A DNA stretch of 64,000 nucleotides from Saururus chinensis (lineage: Eukaryota; Streptophyta; Magnoliopsida; Piperales; Saururaceae). The stretch spans positions 22,364,756 to 22,428,755 of the forward strand of contig CP141147.1 in NCBI GenBank assembly GCA_035235625.1. The letters are read 5' to 3'. How positions within the stretch are numbered: the first letter of the stretch is position 1; each line of letters opens with the position of its first letter. The position numbers were made by a program, and so were the translations under genes. Below, in pieces: positions 7,980-19,684 of the stretch. The notes beneath the pieces were generated by a model, which was not told the origin of the DNA, did not search any database, and saw nothing but the letters and a program-made list of their open reading frames with translations.

Positions 7980-8720
7980 CACTACAACAAAAAGACTCTT
8001 TTTGAAACAATTTTTTTTGCAACAAACATGATTTTGCCGCTAATAGCATATTTTTTGCAACAATTTTAACACTTGTTGCAAAAACTTTGTAGATTGGCGA
8101 AAGGTGAGTTTTTTTGCTACAAATAGGTTTGTTTGTCGCCAAAAATAAAGTCTTTTGTGACACATTGTTTATTTTGTTGCAAATACAATCCCCTTTTTGT
8201 GACAAATAATATGTTATTCCAAAACATCAAAAGTTTTTGCAACAACAATTATGTTTGTCACAAAAGGTCTATTTTTATACGAATAATTATTTTAAAAAAT
8301 GCTTTTGCGACAACTTTAAGTAGTTATCGTGAAAGCCTTACAACCGAACATTTTGCTATAAATGAAGTTTTGTCCCTAAAAGTTATTTTTTGGGACAAAT
8401 ATAAAAATTTATCCCAAAAGGATGTACTTAGAAAATAAGTGAGCATTTGCAACAACAAGCTTAAATCGTGGCAAATATCACCTAATTGTTTAAAATGAGT
8501 AAGTAGTTTTATGGCAAATTGTATCGGTTTTTTTAACCAAATTCCAAATATGTCCTAAATAGACTTTATTTTATTTTATTTTATTTTAAAAAACTATCTA
8601 TTTGAGAGAATTTAAGAAATTTCTTACAAAAAATGTACACCTTTTGCAACAAGTTGGCTAGCTTGTGGTAGATAGGAATTTTTATAACAATTTTTAAAAC
8701 TCGTCAAAAACTGTAGTAAA
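7980..8720. repeat. CACTA left subterminal repeat region
   Basis: At least a dozen short motifs such as TTTTTGCAACAA, TTTGTCGCCAAA, TTTTGTGACA and TTTGCGACAA alternate in both orientations after the terminal CACTACAACAAA. In this transposon family such motifs bind the TnpA-type protein. A weaker AT-rich continuation runs to about 9120 without a gene. Confidence 0.8.
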
Positions 8721-9129
8721 ATATTTATTATTAAAATAAAAAATATTTTAAGTCAAAAATAATTTTTTCAAATGGATTTCCCACTAAATTAACAAACTAT
8801 AAAGATATTTTATATACATATATTTTTATAAACTTTATTATGCTTATTTTTAATGAGTTTTCAAACATGTCATTGGTGGCAATTATTTTTAAATCAAATA
8901 AATTTTTATACATGATTAAAATTTTTTTCAAAATAAATTTTTTCATAAATATGTAAAAAAATATAAATCCATAAATTGATTGATTAATATTCTCCAAATA
9001 AAATGTGATGTTTAACAAATGATTAATATGCATGAAATGATGAGTAACAAATTATTAAAAAATTTGAAATAAAAAATGGTTATTAGTGACACTTTTAAAA
9101 GAGTCACTAACAAGAAAAAAATCTAAAAA

Positions 9130-9770
9130 ATATATCATGTTTCTGGTGGGGGAGCCAGGCCGGGTGGGGGTGGGGTAGAGGCAGAGAGAGGAAGGGGAAT
9201 GGGGCGGGGGCATTGGGGAGGGGAGCCGAATTCCAGAGGAGAAATTGGCACATAGGAGCCTCCCATTTGGCTGGCAAAAGGAGAGAGCAAGAAGGGGGGG
9301 GGGGAGGGGGGGTGGGGTTGAAGAGTGGGATGGTGTTAGAATCTAGAGACTAAGGCAGATCCGGCATTGCCCCCCTTTCTCTATCTCCTCTAGGGGGACG
9401 GGGGGTTGTGGAAGGGGGAGGGAAGGGGAGATGGGAGGGAGGGGCGACGCCAGAATCTTGGGTGGAGCTGGATTTGAGGCTTCCCCTCTTCTCCTCTTTT
9501 TTTGGCGCAGAGGGTGGGGGACAATGGAAAGGGGGAGGGGAAATGGGAGAGACGTGGAGGACAAGGGGAGAACTTGGTCGGGTGGTAGCCAGGGCATCCG
9601 ATTGAGGACTCAGGCAGGGGCCAACAGAGGGGGCTGGTAATAAGGGCCAGGGGGTGGAGGGGCCATATAGCATGGGCAAAATTTCCCCACCCTCCCTTTT
9701 TTTCACGCTTCAATTTGAAGCGTCTCAAAAGGGGAAGAAAAAGATAGGGGAGAGAGAGGGAGAAAAAGAG
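9130..9770. other. Polypurine G-rich tract
   Basis: Long GGGGAGG/GGAGGGGA-rich stretch with runs of up to 12 G near 9290-9312. It opens long reading frames on both strands, but their composition is purely low complexity, so none is called. G-quadruplex potential is evident. Confidence 0.8.
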
Positions 9771-9850
9771 ATATATATATATATATATATATATATATAT
9801 ATATATATATATATATATATATATATATATATATATATATATATATATAT
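9771..9850. repeat. (AT)40 microsatellite
   Basis: Uninterrupted AT dinucleotide repeat of 80 bases, directly followed by an AG tract. Confidence 0.97.
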
Positions 9851-9941
9851 AGAGAGAGAGAGAGAGAGAGAGAGAGAGAGAGAGAGAGAGAGAGAGAGAG
9901 AGAGAGAGAGAGAGAGAGAGAGAGAGAGAGAGAGAGAGAGA
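9851..9941. repeat. (AG)45 microsatellite
   Basis: Uninterrupted AG repeat of about 91 bases abutting the AT tract. Frames through it encode only Glu-Arg repeats and are not genes. Confidence 0.97.
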
Positions 9942-10078
9942 AGGGGGAGAGGGAGGTAAATATAGGATAGAATAAAATTAGTACACTATTGGCGATGCTT
10001 CATAAGAAGCATCACAAATTGTATATTTATTTTTTAAAATATATATACTATTAGCGACGCTTACTGAGAAGTGTCGCA

Positions 10079-17156: not shown

Positions 17157-17250
17157 GTTTGACAGAACGGTTTGAATTATTTATATGTGGTCGGGAACTG
17201 GCAAATGCATTCTCTGAACTGACTGATCCCATGGACTAGATAGATAATGA
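17157..17250 (+). pseudogene. Lysyl-tRNA synthetase (organellar type) exon fragment
   Basis: After an acceptor-like ATGCAG, the sequence encodes [18 protein letters not shown] followed by SELTDPMD and TAG. This is the class II lysyl-tRNA synthetase stretch that positions the active site. The [13 protein letters not shown] wording is closer to chloroplast/mitochondrial than cytosolic plant enzymes, from memory. The TAG falls where the family has Gln (CAG). Only one exon is seen. It directly follows the UBP26-like piece in the same orientation, so it looks captured. Confidence 0.8.
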
Positions 17251-17799
17251 ACTGGTACTTTTGACAGAACTCCAGATTTGTGGATATTGGTTATCAAAAT
17301 TGTATATTCTAGCACTGTTTACCAGTTTTTTAGTGTAGAGGACATAGCCCAAATCTGGATTGTACCAATAGGTTTTTTGCTTGTGATGGGCTAACAAAAG
17401 TGTATCTAGCACTTTAAACAAATGTGACACATTTTATCTTGTTGTTGTATATTACTTTTATGATCTGTGCAACTACAACCCTGGTCGTCCCTTTTTCATT
17501 TCTTCATTGCAATTGAAATCCTGCTGATTATTTGAACAACTCTAATTGGTCAAAAACTGATTAGCTTCCACCTTTTTTCATTTCATGCGATGTTCCATAA
17601 AAGTATCCCAATAGCCCACAAACAATGAATAACTGTGCACCCAATAGGAATATGGTTAATGAATCAAGACAGCCCCCTCAACTCATCTATGCTTCATGGA
17701 AGAAAACATTCATAAGGTATGCAAAGATCTCCCTCTAGTTGTTTATCTTATTAATTATTTTTATTATTGTCTCTTCCTAAACATTTTTCCCTTTCGCAG

Positions 17800-18364
17800 G
17801 CCACCCAGAGTTTTCTGAGCTCTTATGACGAAGGTGATAGTGAGCAGCCAAACTCTAACGAAACCTGCTCATTCTTCATACAGCCAATGCGTCAACAGAT
17901 GGGTTCAAAAATACTATGGGCCTTGAGTAACTTCATGGTATTTGTTTGCACGGCTGGGACTGAAATTATAAGTATGTATTCTATAGAACAATATTCCCAA
18001 GGAATTGAGCATGTGATTGGAGTGAGTGCCACAGTCAGGATTGCTGCCTTGATTATATTTGCCTTGGTCAGCTTTCCTCTTGCTGTAAGTGTTTTTTAAA
18101 TAAATTTTATTTCTAAGGAGAAGTGCACCTGAAGCAATTTTGTATAATGACTGGATCTTTTGCTAATCACATATAGCATTCCTTTTTTAGTGAGAGCAAA
18201 ATTAACTATGAGGTGGCCAAGGTATGTCTCAATACTCTAGTAGTATACCTTCTCCAACATCTCTATTGTGTGTCGTATTGTATTATGATATTGATAGAAT
18301 ACATGTATTGCTTCCTAAGAGGATTGGCTATTGGAATTTTAAATCTTGCCATTGTCGTCCCTCA
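17800..18364 (+). pseudogene. Sucrose transporter fragment (SUT2/SUC3-like)
   Basis: Encodes part of a plant sucrose/H+ symporter, a 12-helix plasma-membrane carrier. Exon 17800-18084 starts after TTTCGCAG and ends before GTAAGT. It contains LWALSNFMVFVC, an EHVIG loop and a helix ending VSFPLA. A short degenerate piece lies near 18190-18220. 18306-18364 encodes GLAIGILNLAIVVPQ before GTATGT, a hallmark of late helices in SUT proteins. Both ends are missing. The first 25 codons are serine- and acid-rich and may belong to the family's long loop or to another source. It is the third gene fragment in the CACTA element and shares its strand. Confidence 0.82.
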
Positions 18365-19039
18365 GGTATGTTTGAAGGTCCTGTTCAGATATTAGATTTG
18401 AAAGTTTATCTATTAGTTTTGGTTATATTTTTGTATGTTCAAGTACACTTTTGATATAACGATATGCAAGTATATGTTGGATTATCTATTGAACATAAAG
18501 CACCCACAATTTTTTAACTGTTGCAAATATTTTATGTGTTAATCAATATGCAAAATCATGTGGACAAGATAAACAATTACTTTGACATCACGTTAGTATT
18601 GTTTGCGAGTTGCCATTAAGGAAATGTTGGCCACTAATCACTCATATGGATGGATATTTATAGATAGCTAGATTTGTATTAACAATTCCCTCAATGTTTT
18701 TCTACCCTTGACCTCTGATTTTGCTCCATCATCGTGTTAGTGAGACAACACTAAGACTTGATGCATGCACTAGTTAATAGAATAACTGATCTTCCATTAT
18801 TTTGGGGCACAATGAGATCTACTTGCAGATTCTTGTAGAACACAAAGAGCTAGTAATTTTCATATGGGTTATTTATTTTTAAAAAATTTAAAGAAACAAT
18901 GACAACTTAAACCGTTGCTGTAGTATGTGAGTTGTTGCTAATACTTAGAGTTTCAACGATGGTCCACAATGCCATCGCTGAATCTGGAGTTTCAATGAGG
19001 GTCCTCAATGACCATTGCTAAAACTTGAGTTTTGACAAT

Positions 19040-19684
19040 AACCATAAATTGTGGAAATTCTACTTTGAGTTCAAGTTCAACTTGAAAATTTATTAATTTT
19101 TTAAATATATTTTTTCTACAAGAAAATTATGTTGCAAACTATCAAATATTTTTTTTCAAATTTCAAATGTTTTTGCAATGAACATTTTTTTTGCCCCAAA
19201 TAGTCTTGCATATACATTTTGGGACAAAATAATTTGTAGCAAATACTAAAAACTATTAATCAAAAGTAGTTTTTTGCAATGGGATGCATTTGTGGCAAAT
19301 ATATTTTATCGTTTTGGAATGATTAATTATTGTTGCAAATACTACACATTAATAATTTAAAAAACAAATTGCAACAAATTTATTTTATCGCAAATACAAA
19401 ATTATTTTTTTATTATTTAATTTTTTTACGACAATTTTTTCGGGTTTTATCCAAATATAATTATAGCATTTTGCAACAAAAACACTTATATTTTGCGACG
19501 TATAATATTGTCGCAAATGTATACCCTTCTAGGGCAAAATTAATTTTGTTGCAAAAACCCTTTTGAGACAAGCTTTTGCAACAACTGTGGGACGAACTTT
19601 TTTGTCGCAAAAAACCTTTTGCAATGAAATTATTATCTTTTGCAACAAATTAATTTGTTGCAAAAGGCCAAATTTGTTGTAGTG
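19040..19684. repeat. CACTA right subterminal repeat region
   Basis: Mirror of the left end: many TTTTTGCAAC, TTTGTGGCAAA, TTTTGCGACG and TTGTTGCAAAAG motifs, ending in TTTGTTGTAGTG at 19684. Confidence 0.8.

Follow-up and report, generated by a model that had tools for sequence, protein, structure and literature searches.

We analysed a 64,000-nucleotide (64-kb) stretch of the Saururus chinensis genome, hereafter the window (C8:22364756-22428755), against the whole assembly of 516,460,831 bases in 11 contigs. With a probability of about 0.9, positions 7980-19684 of the window (C8:22372735-22384439 in the genome) are a degenerate, non-autonomous Pack-CACTA element of a many-copy family, whose host DNA was captured from five or more genes. 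The sequences compared here (the element's ends and insertion site, its cargo and its related copies) support the view that a CACTA element took up pieces of unrelated genes.

Ends and insertion site of the element

7980..19684, plus strand: whole non-autonomous CACTA element, 11,705 bp (terminal repeats, empty paralogous site, second copy with the same junctions)
7980..7991, plus strand: left terminal inverted repeat CACTACAACAAA (exact match)
19673..19684, minus strand: right terminal inverted repeat CACTACAACAAA (exact match)
7980..8730, both strands counted: left subterminal motif array (22 motif hits)
18991..19684, both strands counted: right subterminal motif array (20 motif hits)
61407..61778, plus strand: paralogous empty site with the same flanks and without the element (alignment)

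An earlier note on this DNA had described perfect CACTA ends and subterminal motif arrays, and both descriptions hold. The 12-bp repeat CACTACAACAAA, which starts with CACTA, is perfect on both sides and has no other mismatch-free occurrence in the window. The left 751 bp contain 22 occurrences of the motif TTTTGCAACAA (up to two mismatches, both strands) and the right 694 bp contain 20, whereas the middle 10,260 bp have 5; the expectation from 200 simulated sequences per end was a mean of 2.9 and 3.1, with maxima of 8 and 12. Furthermore, the left flank (7683-7979) and the right flank (19685-19759) match one unbroken stretch, 61407-61778, with 333 of 381 alignment columns identical. Thus, since its flanks are joined at this empty site, 7980-19684 is a real and single insertion.

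Several observations weigh against the Pack-CACTA reading of this insertion. The triplets that flank the window copy, ATT and TAT, differ, and there is no identical 3-bp target-site duplication. Compared to the empty site (TAGATTC), the flanks overlap by 6 bp with one mismatch (TAGATT/TATATT); a duplication is present at this insertion, though not a clean 3-bp one. A second copy on C2, described below, has lost its final G and no duplication was seen there. In addition, no intact autonomous partner was found among the Transposase_21 matches listed from the genome search (at least 152 matches, with the best 150 of 231 candidates scored), none of which lies inside the element itself. One of these matches, C8:32156110-32156739, contains two TGA and lies, as judged by eye, about 1.5 kb inside a left end of the family at C8:32158253-32158669. 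Identical 3-bp flanks (CAA, TGG, ACA and AAA) were, however, present in four of the six copies for which both ends were available, the exceptions being the window and C2 copies, and we file the window copy as CACTA because it is homologous to family copies that carry this duplication.

The neighbourhood of the insertion is itself duplicated. Leucine-rich-repeat (LRR) receptor-like frames on the minus strand (526-1236 and 1294-2256; 53026-54648) lie in a large paralogous duplication, 1-7979 / 52721-61710, whose two copies are about 75-95% identical by segment, and only one of them holds the CACTA element. Within the element there is a long (TA)n and then (GA)n microsatellite at 9771-9940, and a second, degenerate CACTA-like start at 10546-10860 (CAGTACAAAAAAATAG; CAGTACAAAAAAATAGTTA) with repeat motifs of its own, possibly the remnant of a second, fused element.

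Captured gene pieces and their parents

10883..11169, plus strand: repeated sequence, also at e.g. C6:22948507, C10:14000199 and C7:30810704; possibly a captured 5' gene region
11170..11213, plus strand: stub of KASII (beta-ketoacyl-ACP synthase II), 44 bp (DNA match to gene)
11206..11667, plus strand: UBP26 part 1, second half of the USP catalytic domain
11668..16613, no strand assigned: MULE-like element nested in the UBP26 piece (9-bp duplication TTTAATCCA at 11659-11667 and 16614-16622)
12778..15971, no strand assigned: solo LTR (TG...CA) within the MULE (5-bp duplication ACTTT at 12773-12777 and 15972-15976)
16614..17083, plus strand: UBP26 part 2, end of the catalytic domain to start of the DUSP domain
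17084..17427, plus strand: lysyl-tRNA synthetase (LysRS), one exon with flanking intron sequence (93% to the C6 parent)
17437..17865, plus strand: 5' part of a bHLH transcription factor gene, presumably PIF-type (80% to the nearest gene, on C9)
17866..18879, plus strand: SUT2 (SUC3-type) sucrose transporter, introns included (84% to the C2 parent)

Plus-strand fragments of UBP26, LysRS and SUT2 with their introns, as the earlier note had reported, are all present, and the retention of introns indicates that the cargo was captured as genomic DNA. The note's view that unrelated host pieces had been captured is likewise borne out; its count of three sources was too low, since the PIF-type bHLH and KASII pieces are also there. 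Its statement that splice sites were kept is correct in part: comparison with the parent genes shows a GT-to-AT change at the 5' splice site of LysRS, immediately preceded by a TAG, and an AG-to-TA change at one 3' splice site of SUT2. Reading frames are broken in UBP26 part 1 and in SUT2 exon 2.

The UBP26, LysRS and SUT2 pieces were identified by protein and domain comparisons other than a Pfam scan of the pieces, which gave only sub-threshold matches for UBP26 and the short LysRS piece and none for the SUT2 exon; Rfam yielded zero families matching the 64-kb window. The longer UBP26 exon of the C2 copy matches USP catalytic domains (best E 1.2e-8), and residues of about 226-514 of pineapple (Ananas) UBP26 cover the pieces in the window.

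Parents or homologues of four of the sources (SUT2, LysRS, KASII and PIF) occupy separate genomic loci. The donor loci that the earlier note had proposed to look for were thus recovered for LysRS (C6:27.93 Mb, with neighbouring LysRS exons present) and SUT2 (C2:40.26 Mb), but not for UBP26. The KASII parent at C2:55.85 Mb has ketoacyl-synthase exons and is 90% identical, and the C2 CACTA copy retains about 257 bp of KASII. For the bHLH piece, a gene at C9:37.45 Mb, which we take to be a PIF family member, has a bHLH region in its translation; it is homologous to the source at the least, and perhaps paralogous to the true source rather than the parent itself.

Junctions between gene pieces in the cargo are abrupt. 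The PIF/SUT2 border at 17866 was ruled out as a capture breakpoint: a copy on C3 has about 640 bp more at this position, mostly SUT2, which points to a later deletion common to the window and C2 copies.

The UBP26 piece is split by a 4.9-kb Mutator-like element (MULE) that holds a solo long terminal repeat (LTR), both of which the earlier note had overlooked. The MULE ends are alike across about 45 bp, the UBP26 piece of the C2 copy has the uninterrupted site without the MULE, and MULE and LTR together account for 4,946 bp of the 11,705-bp CACTA element. The same MULE family sequence also occurs in a SUT2-bearing CACTA copy (L068, C8:6250500-6255499).

Related copies and assembly of the cargo

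The left-end query (best 40 of 104 candidates scored) gave at least 42 matches at 40 or more genomic places, and the right-end query (best 40 of 188 scored) at least 51 matches, 11 of them short inverted hits, and hence at least 40 places, the window being included in both counts. Other copies with the same termini, for which the earlier note had called, therefore exist for each end. Neither of the findings that it had listed as speaking against capture was made, these being the same fragments in the same order without CACTA ends, and termini without other copies.

One of these copies, C2:28760070-28776320, contains UBP26, LysRS, PIF, SUT2 and the right end with all junctions as in the window. 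Over 16614-19684 the two are identical at 2836 of 3047 positions (93%, gaps left out), and the C2 copy has about 8.5 kb extra, flanked by its counterparts of 9234 and 9417; most of this extra sequence has no match in the window copy. The presence of the same chimera in a second copy implies that it was assembled before the copies separated.

The other copies carry differing cargo. That at C2:32.95 Mb, the only one covered end to end, has both ends and the SUT2 tail. In the stretches examined of the remainder, the C3 copy combines a partial LysRS with PIF and a longer SUT2; the C5 copy has the first 67 bp of the CACTA left end joined directly to a SUT2 exon; the copy at C8:6.25 Mb has the left part together with SUT2 but none of the other pieces; the C6 copy has UBP26 joined to the end of SUT2; and the copy at C11:10.31 Mb has PIF but no SUT2, a right end following about 950 bp downstream. 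Taken together, the copies can be read as a series (SUT2 alone among the pieces, PIF but not SUT2, UBP26 with SUT2, LysRS with PIF and SUT2, and the full set), in which the order of capture and shuffling by CACTA elements becomes testable in a magnoliid.

Distances between the window and C2 copies range from 0.04 to 0.10 by module, and those between window piece and parent gene are 0.065 for LysRS, 0.122 for SUT2 and 0.222 for PIF. These values would fit captures at different times, with LysRS taken up late, the PIF parent being uncertain. Against a late LysRS capture, the C3 copy has a 170-bp LysRS part that lies at a greater distance from the parent (0.163).

Pieces of further genes were seen in sister elements. 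Pfam hits at E <= 0.01 were obtained for 3 of ten open frames picked by eye (202 frames in the main list): ankyrin (1.5e-4, L040), GAD (1.5e-7, L031) and tRNA-synt_2 (2e-13, L072). NCBIfam, applied to three frames, assigned two to aspartyl-tRNA synthetase (AspRS) and one to uracil-DNA glycosylase (UNG; best 5.2e-21, L036). The L031, L040 and L072 frames are each enclosed by the two ends of a copy that has a 3-bp duplication; the L036 copy showed no left end. Altogether, AspRS, UNG or ankyrin-protein pieces were noted in L072, L031, L037, L036, L041 and L040, with L037 and L041 judged by eye. The ankyrin-repeat protein piece in a sister element presumably resembles SPL.

The packed form itself has moved, given the C2 copy with the same junctions and the empty site at the window locus, although neither copy has a clean duplication. 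The pieces were probably gained one after another, and this may have happened through filler DNA during break repair or through fusion of neighbouring elements; the fusion model reportedly originates with Catoni et al. in 2019. The chimera would have been mobilised by a CACTA transposase supplied in trans. The MULE, the solo LTR and deletions represent later damage to the element.

The missing UBP26 parent

In Arabidopsis, UBP26 acts in H2B deubiquitination and is important for heterochromatic silencing, according to the portion of PMC3928566 consulted. Queries with the DNA of the UBP26 piece and with two exons matched only CACTA copies on C2, C8 (the window) and C6, plus a 38-bp scrap on C9. 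Likewise, full-length UBP26 proteins of Ananas and Phoenix (best 25 and 23 candidates scored, E up to 1) found UBP26 solely in the three CACTA copies, with no match outside residues 103-518 for Ananas and 106-553 for Phoenix. Their other hits with E below 0.008 were 26-38% identical (best 34%, E 5.6e-10) and presumably represent other proteases, and weaker hits (E 0.008 to 0.94) reached 40% identity or more only across 31-54 residues. Aristolochia UBP26, compared to the examined loci only, matched the CACTA copies and two distant proteases. As a control, a eudicot SUC3 protein recovered the C2 SUT2 gene exon by exon, from residue 3 to 601. The scrap, C9:34421731-34421768 (38 bp, 92%), was rejected as a UBP26 gene: only 10 residues align, the surrounding 3 kb hold no more UBP26, and by all appearances it is a stray fragment or a chance match and no gene.

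The UBP26 relic, represented by the C2 copy pieces, groups with that of Aristolochia, which belongs to the same order (FastTree support 0.904; 156 columns, 28 sequences). The protein database has UBP26 in plants ranging from liverworts to grasses (107 proteins from 534 candidates, some of them nameless entries). Absence of a Saururus UBP26 from this database was discarded as a sign of gene loss because the control failed: the SUT2 of this genome also has no near-identical protein there, its best 120 of 472 matches being 40-55% identical. The database thus apparently lacks this species, its lack of UBP26 is uninformative, and the case rests on the genome searches.

Two explanations were weighed. 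The parent may have fallen into an assembly or coverage gap, the plant having an ordinary UBP26, and we give this slightly better than even odds. The assembly consists of 11 contigs only, and 35 of 1614 BUSCO genes (2.17%) are missing from GCA_035235625.1 as stated in the available part of PMC11955255, a proportion at which an assembly gap and gene loss are both plausible. Such a gap has to be set against the agreement between the piece-DNA and exon queries, the lone C9 scrap aside, against two full-length proteins that find UBP26 in CACTA copies only, with no N- or C-terminal remainder, and against retrieval of the entire SUT2 gene by the same method. Tentatively, and at somewhat worse than even odds, Saururus chinensis may have lost UBP26, an H2B deubiquitinase with a role in heterochromatic and DNA-methylation silencing in Arabidopsis, and the decayed pieces in Pack-CACTA copies would then be nearly all that survives. 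If so, a conserved silencing gene would persist mainly as transposon cargo, and the transposon family would be a fossil record of it. That the transposon copies of UBP26, or small RNAs from them, contributed to the loss would be a further and unproven step.

Origin of the cargo and function of the chimera

Instead, a Pack-MULE or a Helitron could have collected the cargo and afterwards inserted into an ordinary CACTA element. A MULE is truly nested in the cargo, and Helitrons are known to carry multiple gene pieces (accessible text of PMC1947982 and PMC13317346). However, the UBP26, LysRS, PIF and SUT2 pieces all lie outside 11668-16613, where a Pack-MULE would hold them, and on C2 the cargo is present although the MULE is not. 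Cargo subsets also differ among CACTA copies, and on C5 a 67-bp CACTA end abuts a SUT2 exon. We regard a different collector as very improbable, no search aimed at Helitron ends having been made, and capture within the CACTA family as the better account.

The earlier note had suggested a chimeric transcript or small RNAs against the parent genes as possible consequences. It is likewise very improbable that the element works as a chimeric gene, or as a source of small RNAs that regulate the parent genes. The four larger pieces are all sense-oriented, one open frame (11069-11407) is common to the KASII stub and the UBP26 piece, and in soybean the captured exons of Tgm-Express1 are spliced into chimeric mRNAs, as the excerpted PMC1947982 reports. 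Yet four pieces would all face the same way by chance in 1 of 8 cases, and the 4.9-kb MULE divides the UBP26 piece. Across the 204-bp UBP26 exon, the window and C2 copies differ by 2 synonymous and 3 non-synonymous changes, too few to show constraint. Broken frames and the two lost splice sites, with the TAG in LysRS, make a functional chimeric protein gene unlikely, and as a protein gene the element most likely does nothing now.

Relation to known elements

This kind of element is already known, both as Pack-CACTA (PMC8903248 and the review PMC13317346, each in the part available) and as Tgm-Express1, a soybean CACTA with exons and introns of five unrelated host genes (PMC1947982, same excerpt as above). 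Like Tgm-Express1, the Saururus element combines CACTA ends with exons and introns of at least five unrelated host genes. As far as that excerpt extends, Tgm-Express1 is intronic and its exons are spliced into host mRNA, whereas the element described here lies in a duplicated LRR-kinase neighbourhood with frames and splice sites partly broken, and, unlike in soybean, one parent gene (UBP26) was not found in the assembly.

With the Pack-CACTA and Pack-TYPE elements of Arabidopsis and maize, as portrayed in the consulted sections of PMC8903248, it shares CACTA termini, coding DNA from several loci, related copies with differing cargo and the lack of a transposase among the Transposase_21 matches listed. 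In contrast to them, it is large (11.7 kb in the window, 16 kb on C2), contains a nested MULE and a solo LTR, and has no clean 3-bp duplication in the window copy. Chenopodium CACTA elements also hold captured host gene pieces; in the accessible portion of PMC8978399, however, these fragments (e.g. 80 bp of AP2) lie upstream of a transposase domain, whereas here several genes are joined and no transposase was found. As in Pack-MULEs, several gene pieces were captured by a DNA transposon, but here the MULE entered the cargo later and carries none of the gene pieces described above. Among the open-access papers searched, no report was found of this CACTA family or of such a Saururus Pack-TYPE series.

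Other repeats in the window

Further repeats lie outside the element. A tandem repeat of about 571 bp occupies 55132-57543, with copies mostly 93-97% identical, and interleaved direct repeats of about 82-88% identity cluster at 29848-33535. An inverted pair of about 1.2 kb, 47723-48929 / 50983-52176, is 77% identical, and a near-palindrome of 154 bp at 41537-41690, similar to a miniature inverted-repeat transposable element, is 90% identical to its own reverse complement.

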